Source: Siphonodentalium dalli (Eukaryota > Mollusca > Scaphopoda > Gadilida > Siphonodentaliidae). Taken from it: DNA of 64,000 bases. Location: contig CP136067.1 of assembly GCA_032622095.1 (NCBI GenBank), positions 195,946,052 through 196,010,051 of the forward strand. Direction: 5' to 3'. Both the position numbers and the translations under genes were made by a program. Below the pieces are notes generated by a model. The model saw nothing but the letters and a program-made list of their open reading frames with translations. It was not told the origin of the DNA and made no database searches. Positions 7,979-44,000 of the stretch are shown here, in pieces. Within the stretch, counting starts at the first letter, position 1. The number at the start of each line of letters is the position of its first letter.

Positions 7979-8062
7979 TCACGTCTGTTCAGTACTCTCC
8001 AGGAATTCTTCTAATGTCGCCGTCTCGACAGGAATGATAAGCTGCTCCACTCCGTCGTAACT
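7979..8062 (-). CDS. ORC2: ORC2 terminal exon, C-terminal 27 residues and stop
   Basis: This 84-nt exon contains 27 codons and TGA at 7979-7981. The acceptor on the minus strand is TTCTATCTCAG. It encodes [20 protein letters not shown] then LESTEQT, matching the human ORC2 C terminus [20 protein letters not shown] in length, phase and sequence. It completes the wing of the C-terminal winged helix. A possible AATAAA on the minus strand lies at 7736-7741, about 240 bp past the stop, but inside a dispersed repeat, so the real polyadenylation site is unproven. Confidence 0.95.
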   Translation of the reverse strand, partial: SYDGVEQLIIPVETATLEEFLESTEQT

Positions 8063-11000
8063 CTGAGATAGAAATAAGTTGGTCAGCAAAAGTTATTATT
8101 AACCGTTTCATGACTGGAGCTGTGTTTGTGCAGCATTAAAGATCCTGTGCCAGTGCATACTCATAAATATGTGAGTCTCGCGTATAAAAGAGAATGCATT
8201 GGCTCACAAGGTCAAGGTAAATATTGTTAGGTCAATGCATTCTCTTATATGTGTGAGGCTCCCTATGGGAGACTCAATAGGAGACTCGCATGTATAAGTT
8301 AATGCATTGGCACAGGGTTTTTGCAAAATTTTAGAAAGCTCCATTCCTCAGATATGACATGGAAGGATTAAAGACTGAAGGATTTAAATATTGTTGAAAA
8401 CTTCATCAGTTTATCCTGTCGGGAAAACACAACATCTGAAGAATGAAAAAAACTAGAGGTGGGGTGTCCCAATGAGTCTAAGGATACCTCGCATGGTAGC
8501 CAGTGGAGGAGATGTTTTACGCACGTCCCAATGGGACTAAGGATACCTCGCATGGTAGCCAGTGGAGGAGATGTTTTACGCACGTCCCAATGGGACTAAG
8601 GATACCTCGCATGGTAGCCAGTGGAGGAGATGTTTTACGCACGTCCCAATGAGTCTAAGGATACCTCGCATGGCAGCCAGTGACGGAGATGTTTTATGCA
8701 CGTCCCAATGAGACTAAGGATACCTCGCATGGTAGCCAGTGGCGGAGATGTTTTACACACGTCCCAATGGGACTAAGGATACCTCGCATGGCAGCCAGTG
8801 GCGGAGATGTTTTACGCACGTCCCAATGAGACTAAGGATACCTCGCATGGTAGCCAGTGACGGAGATGTTTTATGCACGTCCCAATGAGTCTAAGGATAC
8901 CTCGCATGGCAGCCAGTGGCGGAGATGTTTTATGCACGTCCCAATGAGACTAAGGATACCTCGCATGGCAGCCAGTGGAGGAGATGTTTTACGCACGTCC
9001 CAATGAGACTAAGGATACCTCGCATGGCAGCCAGTGGAGGAGATGTTTTACGCACGTCCCAATGAGACTAAGGATACCTCGCATGGCAGCCAGTGGAGGA
9101 GATGTTTTATGCACGTCCCAATGGGACTAAGGATACCTCGCATGGCAGCCAGTGGCGGAGATGTTTTACACACGTCCCAATGGGACTAAGGATACCTCGC
9201 ATGGTAGCCAGTGGCGGAGATGTTTTACGCACGTCCCAATGAGTCTAAGGATACCTCGCATGGTAGCCAGTGGAGGAGATGTTTTACACACGTCCCAATG
9301 AGACTAAGGATACCTAGCATGGCAGCCAGTGGCGGAGATGTTTTACGCATGTCCCAATGAGACTAAGGATACCTCGCATGGTAGCCAGTGGCGGAGATGT
9401 TTTACACACGTCCCAATGAGACTAAGGATACCTAGCATGGCAGCCAGTGGAGGAGATGTTTTATGCACGTCCCAATGAGACTAAGGATCCCTCGCATGGT
9501 AGCCAGTGGAGGAGATGTTTTATGCACGTCCCAATGAGACTAAGGATACCTCGCATGGCAGCCAGTGGCGGAGATGTTTTACGCACGTCCCAATGAGACT
9601 AAGGATACCTCGCATGGTAGCCAGTGGCGGAGATGTTTTACGCACGTCCCAATGAGACTAAGGATACCTCGCATGGTAGCCAGTGGCAGAGATGTTTTAT
9701 GCACGTCCCAATGAGACTAAGGATACCTCGCATGGCAGCCAGTGGCGGAGATGTTTTACGCACGTCCCAATGAGACTAAGGATACCTCGCATGGCAGCCA
9801 GTGGCGGAGATGTTTTACGCACGTCCCAATGAGACTAAGGATACCTCGCATGGTAGCCAGTGGCGGAGATGTTTTACGCACGTCCCAATGGGACTAAGGA
9901 TACCTCGCATGGTAGCCAGTGGCGGAGATGTTTTACACACGTCCCAATGAGACTAAGGATACCTCGCATGGCAGCCAGTGGCGGAGATGTTTTACACACG
10001 TCCCAATGAGACTAAGGATACCTCGCATGGCAGCCAGTGGCGGAGATGTTTTACGCACGTCCCAATGAGTCTAAGGATACCTCGCATGGCAGCCAGTGGC
10101 GGAGATGTTTTACACACGTCCCAATGGGACTAAGGATACCTCGCATGGCAGCCAGTGGCGGAGATGTTTTACACACGTCCCAATGGGACTAAGGATACCT
10201 CGCATGGCAGCCAGTGGCGGAGATGTTTTACACACGTCCCAATGGGACTAAGGATACCTCGCATGGTAGCCAGTGGCGGAGATGTTTTACGCACGTCCCA
10301 ATGAGACTAAGGATACCTCGCATGGCAGCCAGTGGCGGAGATGTTTTACACACGTCCCAATGAGACTAAGGATACCTCGCATGGCAGCCAGTGGCGGAGA
10401 TGTTTTACGCACGTCCCAATGAGACTAAGGATACCTCGCATGGCAGCCAGTGGCGGAGATGTTTTACGCACGTCCCAATGAGACTAAGGATACCTCGCAT
10501 GGCAGCCAGTGGCGGAGATGTTTTACGCACGTCCCAATGGGACTAAGGATACCTCGCATGGCAGCCAGTGACGGAGATGTTTTACACACGTCCCAATGAG
10601 TCTAAGGATACCTCGCATGGTAGCCAGTGGAGGAGATGTTTTACACACGTCCCAATGGGACTAAGGATACCTCGCATGGCAGCCAGTGACGGAGATGTTT
10701 TACACACGTCCCAATGAGTCTAAGGATACCTCGCATGGTAGCCAGTGGAGGAGATGTTTTACACACGTCCCAATGAGACTAAGGATACCTCGCATGGCAG
10801 CCAGTGGCGGAGATGTTTTACACACGTCCCAATGAGACTAAGGATACCTAGCATGGCAGCCAGTGGCGGAGATGTTTTACACACGTCCCAATGGGACTAA
10901 GGATACCTCGCATGGCAGCCAGTGGCGGAGATGTTTTACACACGTCCCAATGAGACTAAGGATACCTCGCATGGCAGCCAGTGGCGGAGATGTTTTACAC

Positions 11001-14000
11001 ACGTCCCAATGAGACTAAGGATACCTCGCATGGCAGCCAGTGGCGGAGATGTTTTACACACGTCCCAATGAGACTAAGGATACCTAGCATGGCAGCCAGT
11101 GGAGGAGATGTTTTACACACGTCCCAATGGGACTAAGGATACCTCGCATGGCAGCCAGTGGCGGAGATGTTTTACACACGTCCCAATGAGACTAAGGATA
11201 CCTAGCATGGCAGCCAGTGGCGGAGATGTTTTACGCACGTCCCAATGGGACTAAGGATACCTCGCATGGCAGCCAGTGGCGGAGATGTTTTACGCACGTC
11301 CCAATGAGACTAAGGATACCTCGCATGGCAGCCAGTGGCGGAGATGTTTTATGCACGTCCCAATGAGACTAAGGATACCTCGCATGGAAGCCAGTGGAGG
11401 AGATGTTTTACACACGTCCCAATGAGACTAAGGATACCTCACATGGCAGCCAGTGGCGGAGATGTTTTATGCACGTCCCAATGAGACTAAGGATACCTCG
11501 CATGGCAGCCAGTGGCGGAGATGTTTTACACACGTCCCAATGAGACTAAGGATACCTCGCATGGTAGCCAGTGGAGGAGATGTTTTACACACGTCCCAAT
11601 GAGACTAAGGATACCTCGCATGGCAGCCAGTGGCGGAGATGTTTTACGCACGTCCCAATGGGACTAAGGATACCTCGCATGGCAGCCAGTGACGGAGATG
11701 TTTTACACACGTCCCAATGAGACTAAGGATACCTCGCATGGTAGCCAGTGGAGGAGATGTTTTACACACGTCCCAATGAGTCTAAGGATACCTCGCATGG
11801 TAGCCAGTGGCGGAGATGTTTTACACACGTCCCAATGAGACTAAGGATACCTCGCATGGTAGCCAGTGGAGGAGATGTTTTACACACGTCCCAATGAGTC
11901 TAAGGATACCTCGCATGGTAGCCAGTGGAGGAGATGTTTTACACACGTCCCAATGAGACTAAGGATACCTCACATGGCAGCCAGTGGCGGAGATGTTTTA
12001 CACACGTCCCAATGGGACTAAGGATACCTCGCATGGCAGCCAGTGGCGGAGATGTTTTACACACGTCCCAATGAGTCTAAGGATACCTCGCATGGCAGCC
12101 AGTGGCGGAGATGTTTTACACACGTCCCAATGAGTCTAAGGATACCTCGCATGGCAGCCAGTGGCGGAGATGTTTTACACACGTCCCAATGAGACTAAGG
12201 ATACCTCGCATGGCAGCCAGTGGCGGAGATGTTTTACACACGTCCCAATGAGACTAAGGATACCTCGCATGGCAGCCAGTGGCGGAGATGTTTTACACAC
12301 GTCCCAATGAGACTAAGGATACCTCGCATGGCAGCCAGTGGAGGAGATGTTTTACGCACGTCTCAATGAGACTAAGGATACCTCGCATGGCAGCCAGTGG
12401 CGGAGATGTTTTACGCACGTCCCAATGAGTCTAAGGATACCTCGCATGGCAGCCAGTGGAGGAGATGTTTTACGCACGTCCCAATGAGACTAAGGATACC
12501 TCGCATGGCAGCCAGTGGAGGAGATGTTTTACGCACGTCCCAATGAGACTAAGGATACCTCGCATGGCAGCCAGTGGAGGAGATGTTTTACGCACGTCTC
12601 AATGAGACTAAGGATACCTCGCATGGCAGCCAGTGGCGGAGATGTTTTACGCACGTCCCAATGAGTCTAAGGATACCTCGCATGGCAGCCAGTGGAGGAG
12701 ATGTTTTACGCACGTCCCAATGAGACTAAGGATACCTCGCATGGTAGCCAGTGGAGGAGATGTTTTACGCACGTCCCAATGAGACTAAGGATACCTCGCA
12801 TGGTAGCCAGTGGAGGAGATGTTTTACACACGTCCCAATGAGACTAAGGATACCTCGCATGGCAGCCAGTGGCGGAGATGTTTTACGCACGTCTCAATGA
12901 GACTAAGGATACCTCGCATGGTAGCCAGTGGAGGAGATGTTTTACAAACGTCCCAATGAGACTAAGGATACCTCGCATGGCAGCCAGTGGAGGAGATGTT
13001 TTACACACGTCCCAATGAGACTAAGGATACCTCGCATGGCAGCCAGTGACGGAGATGTTTTACGCACGTCCCAATGAGACTAAGGATACCTCGCATGGCA
13101 GCCAGTGGAGGAGATGTTTTACGCACGTCCCAATGAGACTAAGGATACCTCGCATGGCAGCCAGTGACGGAGATGTTTTACGCACGTCCCAATGAGACTA
13201 AGGATACCTCGCATGGCAGCCAGTGGAGGAGATGTTTTATGCACGTCCCAATGAGACTAAGGATACCTCGCATGGCAGCCAGTGGAGGAGATGTTTTATG
13301 CACGTCCCAATGAGACTAAGGATACCTCGCATGGCAGCCAGTGACGGAGATGTTTTACGCACGTCCCAATGAGACTAAGGATACCTCGCATGGCAGCCAG
13401 TGGAGGAGATGTTTTATGCACGTCCCAATGAGACTAAGGATACCTCGCATGGCAGCCAGTGGCGGAGATGTTTTATGCACGTCCCAATGGGACTAAGGAT
13501 ACCTCGCATGGCAGCCAGTGGCGGAGATGTTTTACGCACGTCCCAATGAGACTAAGGATACCTCGCATGGTAGCCAGTGGCGGAGATGTTTTACGCACGT
13601 CCCAATGAGACTAAGGATACCTCGCATGGTAGCCAGTGGCGGAGATGTTTTACGCACGTCCCAATGAGACTAAGGATACCTCGCATGGCAGCCAGTGGAG
13701 GAGATGTTTTACACACGTCCCAATGAGACTAAGGATACCTCGCATGGCAGCCAGTGGCGGAGATGTTTTTTTTTTGTTTTTTTTTTGTTTTTGTTTTGTT
13801 TTTGTTTTTGTTTTTTTGTTTTTTTATGTGTAAGCAATATTTGCTAAGTGGGTGTCTGACCAGGTAACACGTTGTCCGAGACGTAGTGAACACCAAACCT
13901 GGCACACCAGAATGACAAAAACAAGTCAAAGTGAGATGCCGGCAGGTAGACCAGAGGCCTTTTGGAAAAGTCAAATGAGGATAAGAGCAAAAAACGGCTT

Positions 14001-17000
14001 AAAACATATTTGTCAAAAGAATCGTTCACGCAATACTGCTGGACACAAAACACACAGGCTATGTTGCAATGTCTCCTCTACACACACTATGCTTGGCAAT
14101 ATTTTAAGTTCCCGTCCCGATGACTCAGTAAGTAAGGCACATGGTACTAAATGGAGGGGACCTCGATGACCCAGTCAGCAAGGCGCACGAACTCCCACGC
14201 GGAAACCCCGATGTCCCAGTCATCAACGTGTATGACCCTCTTACGGGTTGGATCCCGGTGCCTCAACCGGTAAGGTGCATGGTATTCTCATGGAAGGACC
14301 CGGGTGATATAATTAGTAAGTCGTATACAATATTATGGAGGGGACCCCGGTATCCAATATTACTACGGAGGCGGCCCCGGTGCTTCAACCAGCAAGGCAC
14401 ATGACCATAAACCTTAAATTCTTATCTGGTACCCAACATATATCAGTTTGTGGTGTATCTATGACACAAAGTTTTGTCAGCCACCAAGTAATGTAATTAT
14501 ATATATATTTATAATATCAAATAACATATATGTAGTGGGGTTGTATATAGTCCAAAGCAACCCCGAAACTCAACACTAGGATGTGATACTAACATAAGAT
14601 AATAAATTGTTTGTATATTATATTAATAAATGTGTTAAAGTCTATACATATTATAATAATGCCATATAGGCAGTGTGCTTGTTAAAAATAATAACAGGTG
14701 GTAAAGTTCCTCAAAGTAGTAACAGGTAGACTAGTTTATAGAATTTATAGTTAATAAGTGATGGAAAAGTCTAGTTTATAACTATGCCCTTGTTGTTATC
14801 GGGTGGTATCTGAATCCAACGAGATCGCATCGCGCGTATAAATTCCTACATTTTAAATATTTCCGCGCTATCATATATGCGAATTTACATATTAAATATC
14901 GGTATACACAAATTATGGCATCCAGGTGAGACATAAAAATCTTTGGCGGAAAACAGACGAACACGGACGGACGGGCGGACTGAACAAACGGCAGACACGG
15001 AATGTCGGCCACAAAACGTTATCCGACATTATATTAAATATGTATTAGCGACTTTTATGTGTCAAGGAGTTGATTGTATGCGCGGCTGGAGCTGGACCGT
15101 TGGAGTCCGCAATATTTATAACAACCAACGCTATCCAAATACATGCACACGCACGTGTTTATATGCTTGACACTCTGGGGTCCGGAGCCCCCGTCTTTGT
15201 ATAAATATGTAAACCATAATATTTATATACTTATTAAAAGATACCAACACTGAAAATTTTAAATTATCGAATTATCCACACTATCGTGACAGGTCACCTC
15301 GTTTACTTGATCAAGTGAGGTCCCGTTGTTTGATCATCGGCAACCATAAGTCCGTATTAAAATAAATAATAAATAAACAAATCCTCATGCAACACAGCAG
15401 CCCCGGGTCAAAGGCCAAACATGCAGCAAGCATCCACACATCACACGACAACATGTCCATCTTAGTTCTTACACTTGTCATGATAATTGATAAATAGGGC
15501 TGTTGTTAGTAAGTAATTCAATTACAAACCTATACATATGACATGGTGAACGCTCTTTACTTAGAGCACACAACAGTTACGTATATATATATGGTACATC
15601 GGTTGGAACCGTGCCCAAAGTTCCAATGCATACAATTTGTTATCGTGACAGCAGACAAAAGCGTGGGCCATCCCACATACATGTATACAATCAACATCCA
15701 CACGTCAAATGGTCCGCTGGTTAACGGGTCCTGTTTCTAAAGTGGTGTTGACATGTGGAACTATGTAAACATGTCATATTTACTGTATTTGAGTGTTTAT
15801 TTTTTTAGTGTTTATTTTTTGACTTATCGTACTAGCTTGATAACACAGAAGGAATCAATTGTTTGGAAAATGTTTACTAAGTCCGTTCCGAAATCATATT
15901 TTTGTACCGAAAGTTGGTCCTATAAAAAAAATGTTTGGCCACAGCAGCTCATCAGGTACACCTCTGGTCTATAACAGATATAAAGCAATCTGTTATTTCA
16001 TATATGGTTTCGGGAGTTACACAATGGGACTAAGGATACCTCGCATGGCAGCCAGTGGAGGAGATGTTTTACGCACGTCCCAATGAGACTAAGGATACCT
16101 CGCATGGCAGCCAGTGGCGGAGATGTTTTACGCACGTCCCAATGGGACTAAGGATACCTCGCATGGCAGCCAGTGGCGGAGATGTTTTACACACGTCCCA
16201 ATGGGACTAAGGATACCTCACATGGCAGCCAGTGGAGGAGATGTTTTACGCACGTCCCAATGAGACTAAGGATACCTCGCATGGCAGCCAGTGACGGAGA
16301 TGTTTTACGCACGTCCCAATGAGACTAAGGATACCTCGCATGGCAGCCAGTGGCGGAGATGTTTTACGCACGTCCCAATGAGACTAAGGATACCTCGCAT
16401 GGCAGCCAGTGGCGGAGATGTTTTACGCACGTCCCAATGAGACTAAGGATACCTCGCATGGCAGCCAGTGGCGGAGATGTTTTACGCACGTCCCAATGAG
16501 ACTAAGGATACCTCGCATGGCAGCCAGTGGCGGAGATGTTTTATGCACGTCCCAATGAGACTAAGGATACCTCGCATGGTAGCCAGTGGCGGAGATGTTT
16601 TATGCACGTCCCAATGAGACTAAGGATACCTCGCATGGTAGCCAGTGGCGGAGATGTTTTACGCACGTCCCAATGAGACTAAGGATACCTCGCATGGCAG
16701 CCAGTGGAGAAGATGTTTTACACACGTCCCAATGAGATTAAGGATACCTCGCATGGCAGCCAGTGGAGGAGATGTTTTACACACGTCCCAATGAGATTAA
16801 GGATACCTCGCATGGCAGCCAGTGGCGGAGATGTTTTACACACGTCCCAATGAGACTAAGGATACCTCGCATGGTAGCCAGTGGAGGAGATGTTTTATGC
16901 ACGTCCCAATGAGACTAAGGATACCTCGCATGGCAGCCAGTGGCGGAGATGTTTTACGCACGTCCCAATGAGACTAAGGATACCTCGCATGGCAGCCAGT

Positions 17001-20000
17001 GGCGGAGATGTTTTATGCACGTCCCAATGAGACTAAGGATACCTCGCATGGCAGCCAGTGGCGGAAATGTTTTACACACGTCCCAATGAGACTAAGGATA
17101 CCTCGCATGGTAGCCAGTGGAGGAGATGTTTTACGCACGTCCCAATGAGACTAAGGATACCTCGCATGGCAGCCAGTGGAGGAGATGTTTTACACACGTC
17201 CCAATGAGACTAAGGATACCTCGCATGGTAGCCAGTGGCGGAGATGTTTTATGCACATCCCAATGGGACTAAGGATACCTCGCATGGTAGCCAGTGGCGG
17301 AGATGTTTTACACACGTCCCAATGGGACTAAGGATACCTCGCATGGTAGCCAGTGGTGGAGATGTTTTATGCACGTCCCAATGAGACTAAGGATACCTAG
17401 CATGGCAGCCAGTGGCGGAGATGTTTTATGCACGTCTCAATGAGACTAAGGATACCTCGCATGGCAGCCAGTGGAGGAGATGTTTTATGCACGTCCCAAT
17501 GAGACTAAGGATACCTCGCATGGTAGCCAGTGGCGGAGATGTTTTATGCACGTCCCAATGGGACTAAGGATACCTCGCATGGCAGCCAGTGGCGGAGATG
17601 TTTTACGCACGTCCCAATGAGACTAAGGATACCTCGCATGGCAGCCAGTGGAGGAGATGTTTTATGCACGTCCCAATGGGACTAAGGATACCTCGCATGG
17701 TAGCCAGTGGCGGAGATGTTTTACGCACGTCCCAATGAGACTAAGGATACCTCGCATGGCAGCCAGTGGAGGAGATGTTTTACACACGTCCCAATGAGAC
17801 TAAGGATACCTCGCATGGCAGCCAGTGGCGGAGATGTTTTACGCACGTCCCAATGAGACTAAGGATACCTCGCATGGCAGCCAGTGGAGGAGATGTTTTA
17901 CACACGTCCCAATGGGACTAAGGATACCTCGCATGGTAGCCAGTGGCGGAGATGTTTTACACACGTCCCAATGGGACTAAGGATACCTCGCATGGCAGCC
18001 AGTGGCGGAGATGTTTTATGCACGTCCCAATGAGTCTAAGGATACCTCGCATGGCAGCCAGTGGAGGAGATGTTTTATGCACATCCCAATGAGACTAAGG
18101 ATACCTCGCATGGCAGCCAGTGGAGGAGATGTTTTACACACGTCCCAATGAGACTAAGGATACCTCGCATGGCAGCCAGTGGCGGAGATGTTTTATGCAC
18201 GTCCCAATGGGACTAAGGATACCTCGCATGGCAGCCAGTGGCGGAGATGTTTTACGCACGTCCCAATGAGACTAAGGATACCTCGCATGGCAGCCAGTGG
18301 AGGAGATGTTTTATGCACATCCCAATGAGACTAAGGATACCTCGCATGGCAGCCAGTGGAGGAGATGTTTTACACACGTCCCAATGAGACTAAGGATACC
18401 TCGCATGGCAGCCAGTGGCGGAGATGTTTTATGCACGTCCCAATGGGACTAAGGATACCTCGCATGGCAGCCAGTGGCGGAGATGTTTTACGCACGTCCC
18501 AATGAGACTAAGGATACCTCGCATGGCAGCCAGTGGCGGAGATGTTTTATGCACGTCCCAATGAGACTAAGGATACCTCGCATGGCAGCCAGTGGAGGAG
18601 ATGTTTTATGCACATCCCAATGAGACTAAGGATACCTCGCATGGCAGCCAGTGGAGGAGATGTTTTACACACGTCCCAATGGGACTAAGGATACCTCGCA
18701 TGGCAGCCAGTGGAGGAGATGTTTTACACACGTCCCAATGGGACTAAGGATACCTCGCATGGTAGCCAGTGGAGGAGATGTTTTACACACGTCCCAATGG
18801 GACTAAGGATACCTCGCATGGCAGCCAGTGGCGGAGATGTTTTACGCACGTCCCAATGAGACTAAGGATACCTCGCATGGCAGCCAGTGACGGAGATGTT
18901 TTACACACGTCCCAATGGGACTAAGGATACCTCGCATGGCAGCCAGTGGAGGAGATGTTTTACACACGTCCCAATGAGACTAAGGATACCTCGCATGGCA
19001 GCCAGTGGCGGAGATGTTTTACACACGTCCCAATGAGACTAAGGATACCTCGCATGGCAGCCAGTGGAGGAGATGTTTTATGCACATCCCAATGAGACTA
19101 AGGATACCTCGCATGGCAGCCAGTCAGTGGAGGAGATGTTTTACACATGTCCCAATGAGACTAAGGATACCTCGCATGGCAGCCAGTGGCGGAGATGTTT
19201 TATGCACGTCCCAATGGGACTAAGGATACCTCGCATGGCAGCCAGTGGCGGAGATGTTTTACGCACGTCCCAATGAGACTAAGGATACCTCGCATGGCAG
19301 CCAGTGGAGGAGATGTTTTATGCACATCCCAATGAGACTAAGGATACCTCGCATGGCAGCCAGTGGAGGAGATGTTTTACACACGTCCCAATGAGACTAA
19401 GGATACCTCGCATGGCAGCCAGTGGCGGAGATGTTTTATGCACGTCCCAATGGGACTAAGGATACCTCGCATGGCAGCCAGTGGCGGAGATGTTTTACGC
19501 ACGTCCCAATGAGACTAAGGATACCTCGCATGGCAGCCAGTGGCGGAGATGTTTTATGCACGTCCCAATGAGACTAAGGATACCTCGCATGGCAGCCAGT
19601 GGAGGAGATGTTTTATGCACATCCCAATGAGACTAAGGATACCTCGCATGGCAGCCAGTGGAGGAGATGTTTTACACACGTCCCAATGAGACTAAGGATA
19701 CCTCGCATGGCAGCCAGTGGCGGAGATGTTTTATGCACGTCCCAATGGGACTAAGGATACCTCGCATGGCAGCCAGTGACGGAGATGTTTTACGCACGTC
19801 CCAATGAGACTAAGGATACCTCGCATGGTAGCCAGTGGCGGAGATGTTTTATGCACGTCCCAATGAGACTAAGGATACCTCGCATGGCAGCCAGTGACGG
19901 AGATGTTTTACGCACGTCCCAATGAGACTAAGGATACCTCGCATGGCAGCCAGTGGAGGAGATGTTTTACACACGTCCCAATGAGACTAAGGATACCTAG

Positions 20001-23000
20001 CATGGCAGCCAGTGGCGGAGATGTTTTACGCACGTCCCAATGGGACTAAGGATACCTCGCATGGCAGCCAGTGGAGGAGATGTTTTACACACGTCCCAAT
20101 GAGACTAAGGATACCTAGCATGGCAGCCAGTGGAGGAGATGTTTTACGCACGTCCCAATGAGACTAAGGATACCTCGCATGGTAGCCAGTGGCGGAGATG
20201 TTTTATGCACGTCCCAATGAGACTAAGGATACCTCGCATGGCAGCCAGTGACGGAGATGTTTTACGCACGTCCCAATGAGACTAAGGATACCTCGCATGG
20301 CAGCCAGTGGCGGAGATGTTTTATGCACGTCCCAATGAGACTAAGGATACCTCGCATGGCAGCCAGTGGAGGAGATGTTTTACGCACGTCCCAATGAGAC
20401 TAAGGATACCTCCCATGGCAGCCAGTGGCGGAGATGTTTTACACACGTCCCAATGAGACTAAGGATACCTCCCATGGCAGCCAGTGGCGGAGATGTTTTA
20501 CACACGCCCCAATGAGACTAAGGATACCTCGCATGGTATCCAGTGGCGGAGATGTTTTACGCACGTCCCAATGAGTCTAAGGATACCTCGCATGGTATCC
20601 AGTGGCGGAGATGTTTTATGCACGTCCCAATGAGACTAAGGATACCTCACATGGTAGCCAGTGGCGGAGATGTTTTATGCACGTCCCAATGAGACTAAGG
20701 ATACCTCGCATGGTAGCCAGTGGCGGAGATGTTTTATGCACGTCCCAATGAGACTAAGGATACCTAGCATGGCAGCCAGTGACGGAGATGTTTTACGCAC
20801 GTCCCAATGAGACTAAGGATACCTCGCATGGCAGCCAGTGGCGGAGATGTTTTACGCACGTCCCAATGAGACTAAGGATACCTCGCATGGCAGCCAGTGA
20901 CGGAGATGTTTTACACACGTCCCAATGAGTCTAAGGATACCTCGCATGGCAGCCAGTGGCGGAGATGTTTTACGCACGTCTCAATGAGTCTAAGGATACC
21001 TCGCATGGCAGCCAGTGGCGGAGATGTTTTACGCACGTCCCAATGAGTCTAAGGATACCTCGCATGGCAGCCAGTGGCGGAGATGTTTTATGCACGTCCC
21101 AATGAGACTAAGGATACCTCGCATGGCAGCCAGTGGAGGAGATGTTTTACACACGTCCCAATGAGACTAAGGATACCTCGCATGGCAGCCAGTGGAGGAG
21201 ATGTTTTACACACGTCCCAATGAGACTAAGGATACCTCGCATGGTAGCCAGTGGCGGAGATGTTTTACACACGTCCCAATGAGTCTAAGGATACCTCGCA
21301 TGGCAGCCAGTGACGGAGATGTTTTACACACGTCCCAATGAGACTAAGGATACCTCGCATGGCAGCCAGTGGCGGAGATGTTTTACGCACGTCTCAATGA
21401 GTCTAAGGATACCTCGCATGGCAGCCAGTGGCGGAGATGTTTTACGCACGTCCCAATGAGACTAAGGATACCTCGCATGGCAGCCAGTGGCGGAGATGTT
21501 TTACGCACGTCCCAATGAGACTAAGGATACCTCGCATGGCAGCCAGTGGCGGAGATGTTTTACGCACGTCCCAATGAGACTAAGGATACCTCGCATGGCA
21601 GCCAGTGGCGGAGATGTTTTACGCACGTCCCAATGAGACTAAGGATACCTCGCATGGCAGCCAGTGGCGGAGATGTTTTACACACGTCCCAATGAGACTA
21701 AGGATACCTCGCATGGCAGCCAGTGGCGGAGATGTTTTACACACGTCCCAATGGGACTAAGGATACCTCGCATGGCAGCCAGTGGCGGAGAAGTTTTACA
21801 CACGTCCCAATGAGACTAAGGATACCTCGCATGGCAGCCAGTGACGGAGATGTTTTACACACGTCCCAATGAGACTAAGGATACCTAGCATGGTAGCCAG
21901 TGACGGAGATGTTTTACACACGTCCCAATGGGACTAAGGATACCTAGCATGGCAGCCAGTGGCGGAGATGTTTTACGCACGTCCCAATGAGACTAAGGAT
22001 ACCTCGCATGGCAGCCAGTGGCGGAGATGTTTTACGCACGTCCCAATGAGACTAAGGATACCTCGCATGGTAGCCAGTGGCGGAGATGTTTTACGCACGT
22101 CCCAATGAGACTAAGGATACCTCGCATGGCAGCCAGTGACGGAGATGTTTTACACACGTCCCAATGAGACTAAGGATACCTCGCATGGCAGCCAGTGACG
22201 GAGATGTTTTACACACGTCCCAATGAGACTAAGGATACCTCACATGGCAGCCAGTGACGGAGATGTTTTACACACGTCCCAATGAGACTAAGGATACCTC
22301 GCATGGCAGCCAGTGGCGGAGATGTTTTACACACGTCCCAATGGGACTAAGGATACCTCGCATGGCAGCCAGTGGCGGAGATGTTTTATGCACGTCCCAA
22401 TGAGACTAAGGATACCTCCCATGGTAGCCAGTGGCGGAGATGTTTTACACACGTCCCAATGGGACTAAGGATACCTCGCATGGCAGCCAGTGGCGGAGAT
22501 GTTTTATGCACGTCCCAATGAGACTAAGGATACCTCCCATGGTAGCCAGTGGCGGAGATGTTTTACGCACGTCCCAATGAGACTAAGGATACCTCCCATG
22601 GTAGCCAGTGGCGGAGATGTTTTATGCACGTCCCAATGAGACTAAGGATACCTCGCATGGCAGCCAGTGGCGGAGATGTTTTACGCACGTCCCAATGGGA
22701 CTAAGGATACCTCGCATGGTAGCCAGTGGCGGAGATGTTTTACACACGTCCCAATGGGACTAAGGATACCTCGCATGGCAGCCAGTGGCGGAGATGTTTT
22801 ATGCACGTCCCAATGAGACTAAGGATACCTCCCATGGTAGCCAGTGGCGGAGATGTTTTACACACGTCCCAATGAGACTAAGGATACCTCGCATGGTAGC
22901 CAGTGACGGAGATGTTTTACGCACGTCCCAATGAGACTAAGGATCCCTCGCATGGCAGCCAGTGGCGGAGATGTTTTATGCACGTCCCAATGAGACTAAG

Positions 23001-32000: not shown

Positions 32001-35000
32001 TATGCACGTCCCAATGGGACTAAGGATACCTCGCATGGTATCCAGTGGCGGAGATGTTTTACACACGTCCCAATGAGACTAAGGATACCTCGCATGGTAG
32101 CCAGTGGAGGAGATGTTTTATGCACGTCCCAATGAGACTAAGGATACCTCGCATGGCAGCCAGTGGCGGAGATGTTTTACGCACGTCCCAATGAGACTAA
32201 GGATACCTCGCATGGCAGCCAGTGACGGAGATGTTTTATGCACGTCCCAATGAGACTAAGGATACCTCGCATGGCAGCCAGTGGCGGAGATGTTTTATGC
32301 ACGTCCCAATGAGACTAAGGATACCTCGCATGGCAGCCAGTGGAGGAGATGTTTTATGCACGTCCCAATGGGACTAAGGATACCTCGCATGGCAGCCAGT
32401 GGCGGAGATGTTTTATGCACGTCACAATGAGACTAAGGATACCTCGCATGGCAGCCAGTGGAGGAGATGTTTTACACACGTCACAATGAGACTAAGGATA
32501 CCTCGCATGGCAGCCAGTGGCGGAGATGTTTTATGCACGTCACAATGAGACTAAGGATACCTCGCATGGCAGCCAGTGGAGGAGATGTTTTACACACGTC
32601 ACAATGAGACTAAGGATACCTCGCATGGCAGCCAGTGGCGGAGATGTTTTACACACGTCACAATGAGACTAAGGATACCTCGCATGGCAGCCAGTGGCGG
32701 AGATGTTTTACACACGTCACAATGAGACTAAGGATACCTCGCATGGCAGCCAGTGGCGGAGATGTTTTACACACGTCACAATGAGACTAAGGATACCTCG
32801 CATGGCAGCCAGTGGCGGAGATGTTTTACACACGTCACAATGAGACTAAGGATACCTCGCATGGCAGCCAGTGGCGGAGATGTTTTACACACGTCACAAT
32901 GAGACTAAGGATACCTCGCATGGCAGCCAGTGGCGGAGATGTTTTACACACGTCCCAATGAGACTAAGGATACCTCGCATGGCAGCCAGTGGCGGAGATG
33001 TTTTACACACGTCCCAATGGGACTAAGGATACCTCGCATGGCAGCCAGTGGCGGAGATGTTTTACACACGTCACAATGAGACTAAGGATACCTCGCATGG
33101 CAGCCAGTGGCGGAGATGTTTTACACACGTCACAATGAGACTAAGGATACCTCGCATGGCAGCCAGTGGCGGAGATGTTTTACACACGTCACAATGAGAC
33201 TAAGGATACCTCGCATGGCAGCCAGTGGCGGAGATGTTTTACACACGTCCCAATGAGACTAAGGATACCTCGCATGGCAGCCAGTGGCGGAGATGTTTTA
33301 CACACGTCCCAATGGGACTAAGGATACCTCGCATGGCAGCCAGTGGCGGAGATGTTTTACACACGTCACAATGAGACTAAGGATACCTCGCATGGCAGCC
33401 AGTGGCGGAGATGTTTTACACACGTCACAATGAGACTAAGGATACCTCGCATGGCAGCCAGTGGCGGAGATGTTTTACACACGTCACAATGAGACTAAGG
33501 ATACCTCGCATGGCAGCCAGTGGCGGAGATGTTTTACACACGTCACAATGAGACTAAGGATACCTCGCATGGCAGCCAGTGGCGGAGATGTTTTACACAC
33601 GTCACAATGAGACTAAGGATACCTCGCATGGCAGCCAGTGGCGGAGATGTTTTACACACGTCCCAATGAGACTAAGGATACCTCGCATGGCAGCCAGTGG
33701 CGGAGATGTTTTACACACGTCCCAATGGGACTAAGGATACCTCGCATGGCAGCCAGTGGAGGAGATGTTTTATGCACGTCCCAATGAGACTAAGGATACC
33801 TCGCATGGCAGCCAGTGGCGGAGATGTTTTACACACGTCCCAATGAGTCTAAGGATACCTCGCATGGCAGCCAGTGACGGAGATGTTTTATGCACGTCCC
33901 AATGGGACTAAGGATACCTCGCATGGTATCCAGTGGCGGAGATGTTTTACACACGTCACAATGAGACTAAGGATACCTCGCATGGCAGCCAGTGGCGGAG
34001 ATGTTTTACACACGTCCCAATGAGACTAAGGATACCTCGCATGGCAGCCAGTGGAGGAGATGTTTTATGCACGTCCCAATGAGACTAAGGATACCTCGCA
34101 TGGTAGCCAGTGGAGGAGATGTTTTACACACGTCCCAATGAGACTAAGGATACCTCGCATGGCAGCCAGTGACGGAGATGTTTTACACACGTCACAATGA
34201 GACTAAGGATACCTCGCATGGCAGCCAGTGGCGGAGATGTTTTACACACGTCACAATGAGACTAAGGATACCTCGCATGGCAGCCAGTGGCGGAGATGTT
34301 TTACACACGTCACAATGAGACTAAGGATACCTCGCATGGCAGCTAGTGGCCGAGATGTTTTACACACGTCCCAATGGGACTAAGGATACCTCGCATGGCA
34401 GCCAGTGGAGGAGATGTTTTATGCACGTCCCAATGAGACTAAGGATACCTCGCATGGCAGCCAGTGGCGGAGATGTTTTATGCACGTCCCAATGAGACTA
34501 AGGATACCTCGCATGGCAGCCAGTGGAGGAGATGTTTTATGCACGTCCCAATGAGACTAAGGATACCTCGCATGGCAGCCAGTGGAGGAGATGTTTTATG
34601 CACGTCCCAATGGGACTAAGGATACCTCGCATGGCAGCCAGTGGAGGAGATGTTTTACACACGTCCCAATGAGTCTAAGGATACCTCGCATGGCAGCCAG
34701 TGACGGAGATGTTTTATGCACGTCCCAATGGGACTAAGGATACCTCGCATGGCAGCCAGTGGCGGAGATGTTTTACACACGTCACAATGAGACTAAGGAT
34801 ACCTCGCATGGCAGCCAGTGGCGGAGATGTTTTACACACGTCCCAATGGGACTAAGGATACCTCGCATGGTATCCAGTGGCGGAGATGTTTTACACACGT
34901 CACAATGAGACTAAGGATACCTCGCATGGCAGCCAGTGGCGGAGATGTTTTACACACGTCCCAATGAGTCTAAGGATACCTCGCATGGCAGCCAGTGACG

Positions 35001-38000
35001 GAGATGTTTTATGCACGTCCCAATGGGACTAAGGATACCTCGCATGGCAGCCAGTGGCGGAGATGTTTTATGCACGTCCCAATGAGACTAAGGATACCTC
35101 GCATGGCAGCCAGTGGCGGAGATGTTTTATGCACGTCCCAATGAGACTAAGGATACCTCGCATGGCAGCCAGTGGCGGAGATGTTTTATGCACGTCCCAA
35201 TGAGACTAAGGATACCTCGCATGGCAGCCAGTGGCGGAGATGTTTTACACACGTCCCAATGAGACTAAGGATACCTCGCATGGCAGCCAGTGGCGGAGAT
35301 GTTTTATGCACGTCCCAATGAGACTAAGGATACCTCGCATGGCAGCCAATGGCGGAGATGTTTTACACACGTCCCCGATGAGTCTAAGGATACCTCGCAT
35401 GGCAGCCAGTGGCGGAGATGTTTTATGCACGTCCCAATGAGACTAAGGATACCTCGCATGGCAGCCAGTGGCGGAGATGTTTTACACACGTCCCAATGAG
35501 TCTAAGGATACCTCGCATGGCAGCCAGTGACGGAGATGTTCTACACACGTCCCAATGAGACTAAGGATACCTCGCATGGCAGCCAGTGGCGGAGATGTTT
35601 TACACACGTCCCAATGAGACTAAGGATACCTCGCATGGCAGCCAGTGACGGAGATGTTTTACACACGTCCCAATGAGTCTAAGGATACCTCGCATGGCAG
35701 CCAGTGGCGGAGATGTTTTACACACGTCCCAATGAGACTAAGGATACCTCGCATGGCAGCCAGTGGCGGAGATGTTTTACACACGTCCCAATGAGACTAA
35801 GGATACCTCGCATGGCAGCCAGTGACGGAGATGTTTTACACACGTCCCAATGAGACTAAGGATACCTCGCATGGCAGCCAGTGGCGGAGATGTTTTACAC
35901 ACGTCCCAATGAGACTAAGGATACCTCGCATGGCAGCCAGTGGAGGAGATGTTTTACACACGTCCCAATGAGACTAAGGATACCTCGCATGGCAGCCAGT
36001 GGAGGAGATGTTTTACACACGTCCCAATGAGACTAAGGATACCTCGCATGGCAGCCAGTGGAGGAGATGTTTTATGCACGTCCCAATGAGACTAAGGATA
36101 CCTCGCATGGCAGCCAGTGGAGGAGATGTTTTACACACGTCCCAATGAGACTAAGGATACCTCGCATGGCAGCCAGTGGAGGAGATGTTTTACACACGTC
36201 CCAATGAGACTAAGGATACCTCGCATGGCAGCCAGTGGAGGAGATGTTTTATGCACGTCCCAATGAGACTAAGGATACCTCGCATGGCAGCCAGTGGAGG
36301 AGATGTTTTATGCACGTCCCAATGAGACTAAGGATACCTCGCATGGCAGCCAGTGGAGGAGATGTTTTACACACGTCCCAATGAGACTAAGGATACCTCG
36401 CATGGCAGCCAGTGGAGGAGATGTTTTACACACGTCCCAATGAGACTAAGGATACCTCGCATGGTAGCCAGTGGAGGAGATGTTTTACACACGTCCCAAT
36501 GAGACTAAGGATACCTCGCATGGCAGCCAGTGGAGGAGATGTTTTACACACGTCCCAATGAGACTAAGGATACCTCGCATGGCAGCCAGTGGAGGAGATG
36601 TTTTACACACGTCCCAATGAGACTAAGGATACCTCGCATGGCAGCCAGTGGCGGAGATGTTTTACGCACGTCCCAATGAGTCTAAGGATACCTCACATGG
36701 CAGCCAGTGGAGGAGATGTTTTATGCACGTCCCAATGAGACTAAGGATACCTAGCATGGCAGCCAGTGGCGGAGATGTTTTACACACGTCCCAATGAGAC
36801 TAAGGATACCTCGCATGGCAGCCAGTGGAGGAGATGTTTTACGCACGTCCCAATGGGACTAAGGATACCTCGCATGGCAGCCAGTGGCGGAGATGTTTTA
36901 CACACGTCCCAATGAGACTAAGGATACCTCGCATGGTAGCCAGTGGCGGAGATGTTTTACGCACGTCCCAATGGGACTAAGGATACCTCGCATGGCAGCC
37001 AGTGGCGGAGATGTTTTACGCACGTCCCAATGAGACTAAGGATACCTCGCATGGTAGCCAGTGGCGGAGATGTTTTACACACGTCCCAATGAGACTAAGG
37101 ATACCTCGCATGGCAGCCAGTGGCGGAGATGTTTTACACACGTCCCAATGAGACTAAGGATACCTCGCATGGCAGCCAGTGGAGGAGATGTTTTACGCAC
37201 GTCCCAATGGGACTAAGGATACCTCGCATGGCAGCCAGTGGCGGAGATGTTTTACGCACGTCCCAATGAGACTAAGGATACCTCGCATGGTAGCCAGTGG
37301 CGGAGATGTTTTACACACGTCCCAATGAGACTAAGGATACCTCGCATGGCAGCCAGTGGCGGAGATGTTTTACGCACGTCCCAATGAGACTAAGGATACC
37401 TCGCATGGCAGCCAGTGGCGGAGATGTTTTACACACGTCCCAATGAGACTAAGGATACCTCGCATGGCAGCCAGTGGCGGAGATGTTTTACGGACGTCCC
37501 AATGGGACTAAGGATACCTCGCATGGCAGCCAGTGGCGGAGATGTTTTACACACGTCCCAATGAGACTAAGGATACCTCGCATGGCAGCCAGTGGCGGAG
37601 ATGTTTTATGCACGTCCCAATGAGACTAAGGATACCTCGCATGGCAGCCAGTGGCGGAGATGTTTTATGCACGTCCCAATGGGACTAAGGATACCTCGCA
37701 TGGCAGCCAGTGGCGGAGATGTTTTACGCACGTCCCAATGGGACTAAGGATACCTCGCATGGCAGCCAGTGACGGAGATGTTTTACGCACGTCCCAATGG
37801 GACTAAGGATACCTCGCATGGTAGCCAGTGTCTGAGATGTTTTACGCACGTCCCAATGAGACTAAGGATACCTCGCATGGCAGCCAGTGGCGGAGATGTT
37901 TTATGCACGTCCCAATGAGACTAAGGATACCTCGCATGGCAGCCAGTGACGGAGATGTTTTACGCACGTCCCAATGGGACTAAGGATACCTCGCATGGCA

Positions 38001-41000
38001 GCCAGTGGAGGAGATGTTTTACACACGTCCCAATGAGACTAAGGATACCTCGCATGGCAGCCAGTGGCGGAGATGTTTTACGCACGTCCCAATGAGACTA
38101 AGGATACCTCGCATGGCAGCCAGTGGAGGAGATGTTTTACGCACGTCCCAATGAGACTAAGGATACCTCGCATGGCAGCCAGTGGAGGAGATGTTTTACA
38201 CACGTCCCAATGAGACTAAGGATACCTCGCATGGCAGCCAGTGGCGGAGATGTTTTACGCACGTCCCAATGAGACTAAGGATACCTCGCATGGCAGCCAG
38301 TGGCGGAGATGTTTTACACACGTCCCAATGGGACTAAGGATACCTCGCATGGCAGCCAGTGGCGGAGATGTTTTACGCACGTCCCAATGAGTCTAAGGAT
38401 ACCTCGCATGGCAGCCAGTGGCGGAGATGTTTTACGCACGTCCCAATGGGACTAAGGATACCTCGCATGGTAGCCAGTGGAGGAGATGTTTTACACACGT
38501 CCCAATGAGACTAAGGATACCTCGCATGGCAGCCAGTGGAGGAGATGTTTTACACACGTCCCAATGGGACTAAGGATACCTCGCATGGCAGCCAGTGGCG
38601 GAGATGTTTTACACACGTCCCAATGGGACTAAGGATACCTCGCATGGCAGCCAGTGGCGGAGATGTTTTACACACGTCCCAATGAGACTAAGGATACCTC
38701 GCATGGCAGCCAGTGACGGAGATGTTTTACGCACGTCCCAATGAGACTTAAGGATACCTCGCATGGCAGCCAGTGGCGGAGATGTTTTACACACGTCCCA
38801 ATGAGACTAAGGATACCTCGCATGGCAGCCAGTGGCGGAGATGTTTTACGCACGTCCCAATGAGTCTAAGGATACCTCGCATGGCAGCCAGTGGAGGAGA
38901 TGTTTTACGCACGTCCCAATGAGACTAAGGATACCTCGCATGGCAGCCAGTGGCGGAGATGTTTTACACACGTCCCAATGAGACTAAGGATACCTCGCAT
39001 GGCAGCCAGTGGCGGAGATGTTTTACACACGTCCCAATGAGACTAAGGATACCTCGCATGGCAGCCAGTGGCGGAGATGTTTTATGCACGTCCCAATGGG
39101 ACTAAGGATACCTTGCATGGCAGCCAGTGGCGGAGATGTTTTACACACGTCCCAATGGGACTAAGGATACCTCGCATGGCAGCCAGTGGCGGAGATGTTT
39201 TACACACGTCCCAATGAGACTAAGGATACCTCGCATGGCAGCCAGTGACGGAGATGTTTTACCCACGTCCCAATGGGACTAAGGATACCTCGCATGGCAG
39301 CCAGTGGCGGAGATGTTTTATGCACGTCCCAATGAGACTAAGGATACCTCGCATGGCAGCCAGTGGCGGAGATGTTTTACGCACGTCCCAATGAGACTAA
39401 GGATACCTCGCATGGCAGCCAGTGGCGGAGATGTTTTACACACGTCCCAATGAGACTAAGGATACCTCGCATGGAAGCCAGTGGCGGAGATGTTTTACAC
39501 ACGTCCCAATGAGACTAAGGATACCTCGCATGGCAGCCAGTGGCGGAGATGTTTTACGCACGTCCCAATGAGACTAAGGATACCTCGCATGGCAGCCAGT
39601 GGCGGAGATGTTTTACGCACGTCCCAATGGGACTAAGGATACCTCGCATGGCAGCCAGTGACGGAGATGTTTTACACACGTCCCAATGGGACTAAGGATA
39701 CCTCGCATGGCAGCCAGTGGCGGAGATGTTTTACACACGTCCCAATGGGACTAAGGATACCTCGCATGGCAGCCAGTGGCGGAGATGTTTTACGCACGTC
39801 CCAATGGGACTAAGGATACCTTGCATGGCAGCCAGTGGCGGAGATGTTTTACGCACGTCCCAATGAGACTAAGGATACCTCGCATGGCAGCCAGTGGCGG
39901 AGATGTTTTACACACGTCCCAATGAGACTAAGGATACCTCGCATGGTAGCCAGTGGCGGAGATGTTTTACGCACGTCCCAATGAGTCTAAGGATACCTCG
40001 CATGGCAGCCAGTGACGGAGATGTTTTACGCACGTCCCAATGAGACTAAGGATACCTCGCATGGCAGCCAGTGGCGGAGATGTTTTACGCACGTCCCAAT
40101 GGGACTAAGGATACCTCGCATGGTAGCCAGTGGCGGAGATGTTTTACGCACGTCCCAATGAGACTAAGGATACCTCGCATGGCAGCCAGTGGCGGAGATG
40201 TTTTACGCACGTCCCAATGGGACTAAGGATACCTCGCATGGCAGCCAGTGGCGGAGATGTTTTACACACGTCCCAATGGGACTAAGGATACCTCGCATGG
40301 TAGCCAGTGGCGGAGATGTTTTACGCACGTCCCAATGAGACTAAGGATACCTCGCATGGCAGCCAGTGGCGGAGATGTTTTACGCACGTCCCAATGAGAC
40401 TAAGGATACCTCGCATGGAAGCCAGTGGCGGAGATGTTTTACGCACGTCCCAATGAGACTTAAGGATACCTCGCATGGCAGCCAGTGGCGGAGATGTTTT
40501 ACGCACGTCCCAATGAGACTAAGGATACCTCGCATGGCAGCCAGTGGCGGAGATGTTTTACGCACGTCCCAATGGGACTAAGGATACCTCGCATGGCAGC
40601 CAGTGGCGGAGATGTTTTACGCACGTCCCAATGGGACTAAGGATACCTCACATGGCAGCCAGTGGCGGAGATGTTTTACGCACGTCCCAATGGGACTAAG
40701 GATACCTCGCATGGCAGCCAGTGACGGAGATGATTTACGCACGTCCCAATGGGACTAAGGATACCTTGCATGGCAGCCAGTGGCGGAGATGTTTTACACA
40801 CGTCCCAATGAGACTAAGGATACCTAGCATGGCAGCCAGTGGCGGAGATGTTTTACGCACGTCCCAATGAGACTAAGGATACCTAGCATGGCAGCCAGTG
40901 GCGGAGATGTTTTACGCACGTCCCAATGAGACTAAGGATACCTCGCATGGCAGCCAGTGGCGGAGATGTTTTACGCACGTCCCAATGGGAATAAGGATAC

Positions 41001-44000
41001 CTCGCATGGTAGCCAGTGGCGGAGATGTTTTACGCACACAAGTTATGATCGTGAAAGGTAAGTCGGATGCACACATATCTGGACAGACTAATATTCTGAT
41101 TTGAGGATTGAGAAAAGTCGAAAAAGGGGGATAACTCCACACACAAAAATCGGATGGACCTCATAATCGTAGGTGCACAGGTTCCCATGGTACTAAATAT
41201 CTCATAATCACCTCATAATAATCACCTCATAATAATCACCTCATAATCACAGGTTTCTATGGTTATAAATATCTGCCAAGCTGTGCCAAGCATAAAAAAA
41301 AAAGATTGACCGAAAAATGAAGGAATAAAAGCTCCGACAAAGTTGTATCTATGATACGCAGACAGACGGATTGACAAGCGGATTCCTATATATCCCCCCA
41401 ACTCGTTACAATAAAAATATTTAGTCCTTAATTTGTCTCAAATCAAATACTGAAAATCAAATGGCAATCATTCGGCAAACAAGGGTCACTACACATGATT
41501 TACATAATAGAATTACATTCTTTGTTATCATTTTAGATATAAATAACTAGGTCGAGCAAGGTAATTTGTCATGAATGTTTTACTCAGGGTTTAGACTACC
41601 ACTTGTCAAATTTGCCAATGCCAAAATAAATTTCAATTTGCAAAAATTTTGGCAAGTAGGTTTTTAATTCTGTGATTTGAATGATCTTGTTAGAATATAT
41701 CAAAGAAGGCGGATTATCCAATATGTGTGCGTGGTTTACATAGATGGACAGAAATTAGCAACCAGACCCCGAAAATTCTTTTTAAAGTTGCAAACACAAT
41801 TGACAAAACAGACTTTCAACAATGCATAGACAGTTAATGACTGGTTAAAACATGAGTCAGAAAAAACTGAAGCAAATTAGGCCACAGCAAAGGGTTGCTG
41901 ATACCAAACAATCTGAATTAAGAGGGCTGGCATATGCAGACACATATTATTTTGAGGCAAAAAGTTGGGCATCATATAATAAAGATGAAAAAAATGAGAA
42001 TTTTTCCTCAATTCACCTGAGTTACTGAATTAAACCCTCACTTCAAATTGGCAAGTTTTTTAGAATATTTTTAAAATTCATTTGTCAACTGTTGTCAAGA
42101 GAATATTTTAGTCCAACGCCAACACTGGTTTCACTCCACTTTATCTGAGCCAGCAATAAGATAAGAGTAAGAGGAGATAATTGTATGTGTCATATTTGTC
42201 TGAGTAGCAGGTATATGTTGACTGTTACCTTTTTGGAACGGATGAGCTTATGGTCCCTAAATTCAATGAGCTGCGCTCGCAATGTGAGGTCACTGTTAAC
42301 AAGGAAACTTTCTCTGCATCTTTGGTACAAGTCATGGAAAGCCATACCTGAAATAAAAATGATCATGTTGACAAAAATCTGCCTGACGGATCCATCCACC
42401 TTAAAATGTGAACAATTTCCAACAGAATTTAGGTGACTTGGTGGCGAGAACCCTTCCCATGTATACTTTTATAACTGGGTGGGAGAATCCATTCAGTATA
42501 GAAAGGATATTCAAGGAGGATAATATGCATTTGAAATTGAAGAGATCTGTTCATATCTAGATTTCCGATAATGTAGGTTTCAACGTCTAATTACTAATGA
42601 TTCTAAAATAATGACTTTCTGTATATGGGGCTCACACAAGCCTTGAAATAGTGTGTCTGTCATTTGCAGAATGAGGTCCCCAGAGGGTGATTTAGTGATG
42701 CTACCCCGCATAGCGGGCTAGCATCACCAAATTCACCCTCTGGGAACCTCATTATGCTAAGGCCTAAGCAGAATGAGGTCCCCAGAGGATGAATTTGGTG
42801 ATGCTAGCCCGCTATGCGGGGTAGCATCACTAAATTCACCCTCTGGGGACCTCATTCTGCAAATGACAGGCTCACTATTTCAAGGCTTGGGGCTCACACT
42901 TGTACATTATGAGTATAGTAATATTTTAGTTCTGAATTAGAACTCACCGATATATGTGGAGTTGTCTTTATTTTCCAGCTGGTATTTAACTAGTAGTATG
43001 AAGATGCCTTTAGCATTACTCGTCAAACTCTTCATGACATGCGTGAGTGAGCTGAGAGCCAATGCTCCGGTCTGCTGCACCAACAATGAGTTCTCATATG
43101 ACGTCTCATCAGAGTATGGAATGTAAGATGTAACGTCGTACCACAACCAGTTATATCTGCTGCATTTAGTGTGGTCAAAAACTGAAATGGAAGGTTCAGG
43201 TCAACGATGGCCCTAAACTTTTTATCTTAACCCTTTACCCAACAGAAGGGCCCTGTGCCAATGCATTCTCTTATATATGCGAGTCGACCATCAAGGGTAG
43301 ATACACAGTAATGCCCTAAATAATCGACTCCTTAACCATAGCAGAATTAGTGGTAACTTTTCAGGATATAGTTGGAAATATGGCTTGTTGCCATTCATCG
43401 GAAAGCTCTCCCCGATGGGAGAGCTTTCCGATGAATGGCAACAAGCCATATTTCCGACTAAATCCTGAAAAGTTACCCATAATTCTGCTGTGGAAAAGAG
43501 GTCGATTAATTAGAGCATTACTGTAATTATTTCCCTAATTTTTCATGCAAACAGGAACAGGATAGCTGCCTATTTTTATAATTTTGAAAACTACTACATT
43601 TCTGATTAAAAATCAAACTTTTAACCCTTTCACTGTGGCTGATGCATTATTAAAGACCATGTGCCAGTGCATTCTCTTATATAAGTGAGTCTCCCATAGA
43701 GAGCCTTTGATATATAAGAGAATGCACTGGCTTACACAATCAAGGTAAATATTGTTAATTTGTTAGGCCAATGCATTCTCCCTATGGGAGACTCCAAAGA
43801 GAATGCATTGGCGCAGGGTTCTCACTAAATTTCAGGAAGCTCGAGTCATCGAAGTGTTAAATTATTTATAAGCGAAATATGCTTCTGTGTGTTTTTGGGA
43901 ACAATAATGGAGATGTATCAGGGTGTATCATAAAAAAGAATTTCTTATAAACTTTTGTTTCATTTGAAGTGTTTCCCAGAAGAGATTGTGTGCTTTAAAG

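Follow-up and report, generated by a model that had tools for sequence, protein, structure and literature searches.

An intronic 59-bp minisatellite in the ORC2 gene of Siphonodentalium dalli, very probably grown in place from a dispersed repeat

The last intron of the replication gene ORC2 in the scaphopod mollusc Siphonodentalium dalli is dominated by a tandem array of 59-bp units, which we describe here from a stretch of 64,000 nucleotides (hereafter the window; GenBank assembly GCA_032622095.1, contig CP136067.1, or C7, forward-strand positions 195,946,052 to 196,010,051). Coordinates without a prefix are window positions. Very probably the array is an intronic variable number of tandem repeats (VNTR) locus that was born in situ from a dispersed repeat, is spliced out with its intron and changes fast, its two versions in the assembly, that of the window (copy A) and that of a second ORC2 copy on C7 (copy B), most likely being haplotypes. 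The unit matches a segment of the dispersed repeat and, at the sensitivity used, the array occurs in this intron only; the two versions differ in length, have lost any detectable common order of units and carry locally clustered variants.

The last ORC2 intron and its array

The first-pass annotation had placed an intron between the exons at 42229-42347 and 7979-8062, and splice borders, phase and protein alignment bear this out. The penultimate coding exon (42229..42347, minus strand) is bordered by TTTCAG on the acceptor side and by GTAACA on the donor side, and is in phase with the last coding exon (7979..8062, minus strand; acceptor TATCTCAG followed by AGTTAC), which would encode the C-terminal 27 residues (...STEQT-stop). 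Both exons align with ORC2 chains of the Protein Data Bank (PDB). The joined peptide of the last three exons does so without a gap over residues 2-145 (144 residues; E 5e-65), and the Pfam domain WHD_ORC2 (peptide residues 74-134) spans the last junction, located at 119/120. Our ORC2 model comprises six exons, from 54207 downstream to the stop codon. On the minus strand, from 54207 down to 7979, they together form an open frame that closes with a stop, and each of the five intervening introns starts with GT and ends with AG. Because the borders are canonical, the frame is open, the ORC2 alignment is gapless and WHD_ORC2 crosses the junction, we regard the assignment of 8063-42228 (34,166 bp, minus strand) as the last ORC2 intron as a sound prediction. 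Given its place in the intron, the array would be transcribed with each ORC2 pre-mRNA. The doubt whether misassembly had brought the two exon regions together, raised in the same annotation, is partly answered: in both copies the sequence runs from one exon to the other without a gap, and copy B repeats the order exon, array, exon.

Within the intron, Tandem Repeats Finder reports a 59-bp array at 8466-13769 (89.9 copies, 96% match) and another at 16022-41037 (423.9 copies, 95% match). Cyclic alignment resolves the two parts, both read on the plus strand, into 90 units (8466..13769) and 424 units (16020..41037), or 514 units in total, with an insertion in four of them and a deletion in three. 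The array takes up 30,320 of the 34,166 bp of the intron (88.7%), in agreement with the initial estimate of about 514 units filling some 89% of it. Its guanine-plus-cytosine content is ~0.52, against ~0.36 before the rise, and the window contains no N. The label 'megasatellite-scale', on the other hand, had to be given up: because the unit is 59 bp, the array is a minisatellite, a class for which motif lengths of 5-64 bp are stated (PMC9714581). Units of tens of base pairs run head to tail, 514 of them in copy A and 174 in copy B, as in other minisatellites or VNTRs.

A search for higher-order periodicity in the array found none, the lowest mean difference, at lag 2, lying barely under those at other lags. 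At unit positions 55-56 (n = 514) the dinucleotide is CG in 151 units, CA in 206, TG in 155 and another in 2. Despite these states, 502 of 512 unit junctions retain their CpG, and a reading of the array in terms of methylation decay was set aside. Since neither Rfam nor ARAGORN gave a match on the window, the 59-bp unit and a 2.2-kb insert that splits the array are tied to no known RNA.

Origin and turnover of the 59-bp unit

A probe of three units, outside C7:195954543-195959820, matches only about one to two units at no more than 93% identity across all nine contigs (best 38 of 100 candidates scored; the matches listed include neither copy B nor array part 2). Twenty loci of a dispersed repeat were picked from the better-scoring matches. 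The 59-bp segment is single in 18 of them, preceded by versions of AACTAGAGGTGGGCT and followed by versions of TCAAGTTATGCTCTGGAAAGGTAAGTCGGA; at one locus, L017, the right-hand side diverges early after the segment. The ORC2 array is flanked by versions of these same neighbours. The head of the repeat (AAACTAGAGGTGGGGT; 8450..8465, plus strand), aligned with the 18 dispersed copies, adjoins the first array unit, and the rest of the same repeat (ACAAGTTATGATCGTGAAAGGTAAGTCGGATGCACACATAT...; 41038..41202, plus strand) adjoins the last unit, the similarity on this right-hand side extending over ~165 bases, until about ...GGTACTAAATATCT. The unit is homologous to an internal segment of the dispersed repeat, the remainder of which still lies beside the array. 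Because the array has the same neighbours as the segment has in dispersed copies, we conclude that the array arose on the spot, by amplification of one 59-bp segment from a single dispersed copy.

At the founding breakpoints, the unit ends in C where the left neighbour has T, and begins with G where the right neighbour has A (mostly T in dispersed copies); since these bases mismatch on both sides, no microhomology is visible. In the other two of the 20 loci (L006 and L018) the head region is likewise duplicated in tandem, on a small scale and at breakpoints that differ from those of the ORC2 array, so this region may be duplication-prone.

A pattern across the array junction, which is missing from the single-copy segment, was searched for in the 2.23-Gb genome with at most one mismatch, more diverged arrays falling below this sensitivity. 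It matches 679 times in the forward orientation and 0 times in reverse, and of these matches the window holds 506 and copy B 173, all within the two ORC2 introns. At the sensitivity of this search, the array is seen in the last ORC2 intron and nowhere else.

Beside the array, substitutions between copies A and B amount to 0.70% on the left (572 bp) and 0.79% on the right (1,391 bp). The arrays themselves hold 514 units in A and 174 in B, the two copies being probable haplotypes of one animal. There are 120 unit types in A and 47 in B; because 32 types are common to both and frequent variants fall at the same positions, the two arrays share a common ancestry. Their order of units tells of change since. 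No run of at least four identical units is common to A and B, and the best alignment of unit order scores 11.2 against a shuffle mean of 10.5, with 45 of 200 shuffles at least as high, i.e., no common order is detectable. Planted blocks of 4, 6, 8, 10 and 20 units (0.8% divergence) were recovered 11, 16, 19, 19 and 20 times out of 20, respectively, and given these rates, the test could overlook common blocks shorter than about six units.

Each array carries a block duplication. In copy B, units 73-106 match units 107-148 (a block of 34-42 units) with a score of 96.5 versus 13.3 for one shuffle; the duplication in copy A scores 66.0 versus 13.3 (one shuffle). Private variants are clustered, with A at position 4 found in 23 units, all at 0-based indices 368-410 of copy A, and T at position 40 in 11 units, all at 0-based indices 89-142 of copy B; A at position 25 is private but dispersed (29 units over indices 14-511 of copy A, 0 in B). 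Given the block duplications, the clustered private variants and no detectable common order, the array variants form a pattern of local duplication with fast turnover.

The second ORC2 copy and the 2.2-kb insert

The first-pass annotation had also called ORC2 single-copy, which does not hold in the assembly. A search with Pfam PF04084 (7 matches; 9 of 9 candidates scored) finds two copies of three ORC2 exons on C7, ~207-209 kb from each other; one of these exons has a third copy, which lies in an inverted fragment of 573 bp. In the order seen in the window, copy B has its last ORC2 exon at C7:195769224-195769307 (identical to window 7979..8062), an insert-free array of 174 units by cyclic alignment at C7:195769712-195779967 and the previous ORC2 exon at C7:195781139-195781257, which gives an intron of 11,831 bp. 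A gap of 100 N (C7:195801106-195801205) is the sole N run in C7:195764001-196010051. The first 2,795 bases past it match 195550058-195552852 at 100% (rounded), the first such base being C7:195550058, and the last bases ahead of it match up to 196010711 at 98.4%. Thus placed, the 251,048 bases leading up to the gap and the 209,506 bases just beyond it form a suffix-prefix overlap of the kind seen between contig ends. Among the marks given for false duplication is an assembly gap that separates the duplicated pair (PMC9516828), and here both the gap between the pair and the overlapping ends are found. Because of the gap and this geometry, copy B is most likely the other haplotype of the sequenced animal, left in the assembly by mistake, head to tail. 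The false heterotype duplications described in the same source likewise consist of near-identical neighbouring copies parted by an assembly gap; the likeness here rests on gap and overlap geometry rather than on read depth or k-mers.

Upstream of the penultimate exon, the model places four further exons on the minus strand: 42948..43181, the predicted end of the RecA-like domain (PF04084 match, splice borders); 50702..50845 (PF04084 search, splice borders, open frame); 52332..52428 (open frame and splice borders; outside the PF04084 matches); and 54075..54207 (PF04084, open frame), of which the inverted fragment holds a further copy. The fragment (C7:195464921-195465493, in L056) corresponds to window 53968-54543, with 98.3% identity to copy A and 99.5% to copy B, and reads as a recent gene-fragment copy of this exon region. 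In another ORC2 intron, window 46381-50064 (3.7 kb, including an 11-copy array of 164 bp at 47033-48814) is missing from copy B. Window 42666-42860 is a two-copy 103-bp repeat with inverted parts (GAGGTCCCCAGAGG...), and a related stretch of copy B matches it in both orientations. Farther away, six of seven one-kb samples from C7:195624001-195721000 (97 kb; L046-L049, L051 and L052) match a 21-bp satellite, and the remaining one (L050) gives no match; in the other contig, the 21-bp arrays extend over just ~5.5, 2.1 and 5.4 kb. This is probably another large length difference between haplotypes.

The two parts of the window array are separated by a different element, a 2.2-kb mobile-element insert on the minus strand (13770..16019) whose 3' tail is A-rich (seen on the plus strand as poly-T at 13770-13825); the copy B array lacks this insert. 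Its family has at least 36 further copies with at least 2,100 bp matched at 96-98% identity (best 40 of 1,879 candidates), and several copies among the matches listed lie head to tail at a spacing of ~3,956 bp. The single 3.96-kb tandem unit that was read contains no open reading frame longer than 105 residues, and Rfam gave no match on one locus of the family (L057).

The 3' flank was read at 23 loci, the best-scoring ones (L057-L097; L089 is without a 3' end), with clusters read at their outer end and the locus at C7:195569651 via its partner in the other contig. Ten of the 23 lie within a tandem array, whereas none of the 20 flanks of the dispersed repeat that served as controls does (Fisher p 0.0007), the controls being 278-382 bp long and the family flanks 470 bp. 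The idea of a location in arrays came from the first 12 loci, six of them in arrays; among the 11 fetched afterwards the count is four (p 0.010). Of the 14 pairs read on both sides, 13 have similar left and right flanks, eight of them arrays or array-like and five single duplications of 44, 62, 70, 78 and 166 bp (90-100% identical); no flank duplication is seen in the L060/L093 pair, whose right edge was not found. The ORC2 insert interrupts a unit, the left flank stopping at position 53 and the right restarting near position 5. This phase fits a duplication of ~49-51 bp, alone or plus multiples of 59 bp. A 10-bp target deletion was dropped as an account of the same insertion, since a duplication of ~49-51 bp fits the phase equally and the family shows duplications of that size.

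We tentatively suggest that this is a non-coding retroposon family that makes target-site duplications of 44-166 bp and homes to, or survives in, minisatellite arrays throughout the genome, and that, combined with the amplification of dispersed-repeat fragments in situ, it produces giant hypermutable introns, core genes included; we hold this possible but doubtful. The literature listings on long target-site duplications and on insertion into arrays name no matching family. If the suggestion were true, the last ORC2 intron would be one such site, with two haplotypes of one animal that differ in length by ~22 kb and have lost all common unit order, and because of these differences the expression of the ORC2 alleles would be directly comparable with array length.

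Competing explanations and known systems

In the history that we favour, a dispersed non-coding repeat would have been present in the last ORC2 intron, and a 59-bp segment near its head would have been tandemly duplicated, with no microhomology seen. Further growth would have come from repeated local block duplication, presumably driven by slippage, unequal exchange or conversion-type repair. Turnover would have been fast enough that a flank difference of 0.70-0.79% is accompanied by 514 versus 174 units and no detectable common order, and the mobile element would either have entered the longer version or been lost from the shorter. The array would leave with the intron and is presumably harmless. 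We saw no indication of a conserved role: RNA folding is weakly above shuffles, and neither unit order nor copy number is kept; the host being the replication gene ORC2 is probably a coincidence.

Several points weigh against this account. The removal of the array by splicing is predicted from genomic sequence only, the mechanism of the founding duplication is conjectural, and the unit order in either array might hold errors because long arrays can be misassembled. The haplotype status of copy B is deduced from assembly geometry, not from half coverage. Among 13 one-kb samples of the overlap, four are collinear, in order and 98.1-99.9% identical, with six in the 21-bp satellite and three partnerless, and substitutions between the copies range from 0.23 to 3.89% by block. 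The partnerless samples and the block at 3.89% would suit a true tandem duplication of ORC2, into 251-kb and 209-kb copies whose arrays diverged as paralogues, as would the six modelled exons, which are open in both copies and differ between them at 10 of 811 nucleotides and at 4 residues. However, the boundary falls at the 100-N scaffold gap, itself a mark of false duplication when it parts duplicated pairs (PMC9516828), the contig ends overlap suffix to prefix and stretches reach 99.9-100% identity, which makes a true duplication improbable. Inflation of the array by the assembler is less probable again, and we give it very little weight: long arrays are hard to assemble and the copies differ threefold, but the window is without N, non-array sequence flanks the array on both sides in both copies, and the 120 unit types of copy A, the clustered private variants and the block duplications are found instead of exact copies throughout.

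An array kept for function, its length setting the timing of ORC2 transcripts, their splicing or the balance of normal and truncated C termini, is unlikely, if slightly less so than such inflation. Read-through past the donor at 42229 would replace the last 27 residues by 12 others, inside the winged-helix match, and the satellite-filled introns of Drosophila kl-3 and kl-5 require special handling (PMC6508621). Against a function stand the threefold difference in copy number, the lack of likeness in unit order between the versions, and the folding of one three-unit stretch of RNA, which is just mildly stronger than that of shuffles (z -1.95; 5 of 200 shuffles fold equally well or better). The 2.2-kb family could also have started the array or added to it, its insertions generating tandem copies through their long target-site duplications. 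The single flank duplications at five family loci, the frequent location of the family in arrays and a founding 59-bp duplication without visible microhomology, as from a staggered cut, would agree with this; yet the ORC2 insert lies within a unit (53 / ~5), away from the unit boundary, and the copy B array exists without an insert, and we find this origin highly unlikely. We retain the reading of an intronic VNTR grown in situ.

The locus offers a base-level case of minisatellite birth, in which the amplified segment of the parent repeat is known, both parent flanks remain in place and the array is apparently confined to a single intron. Its two versions, at 0.70-0.79% flank divergence, bound the speed at which order is lost in an array of 10-30 kb. 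In addition, counts of gene copies at the ORC2 locus are probably inflated by unpurged haplotypes.

The human ABCA7 VNTR is located in an intron, and human gene VNTRs of this sort have units of tens of base pairs. The ABCA7 VNTR is given as 10,000 bp (PMC6857246), and kilobase-scale human VNTRs are known (PMC6857246, PMC8096271); like the ORC2 array, they lie within a protein-coding gene and span kilobases, and they are very polymorphic, as the ORC2 array would be if its two versions are haplotypes, whereas the ORC2 array reaches ~30 kb in its longer copy, sits in a core replication gene and has no known phenotype. Minisatellites arising from transposable elements (Alu, B1, MaLR) are also known (PMC6947457). 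There, as in ORC2, the array grew on the spot through duplication and amplification of part of a single dispersed copy. They differ in that the parent repeat of the ORC2 array is tied to no named family, and in that short flanking repeats are described for them, whereas no matching bases are seen at the founding breakpoints in ORC2. Giant satellite-filled introns occur in the Drosophila Y genes kl-3 and kl-5 (PMC6508621), which resemble the ORC2 intron in consisting mostly of a tandem array through which transcription has to pass (in ORC2, as expected from position); those are megabase simple satellites in spermatocyte genes, in contrast to 59-bp units over 30 kb in a replication gene. The literature excerpts on a minisatellite in an ORC2 intron contained only ORC2 binding at fragile sites, and no such array. 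In sum, the ORC2 array is striking and large, yet of a recognisable, already known kind: a fast-changing intronic repeat.

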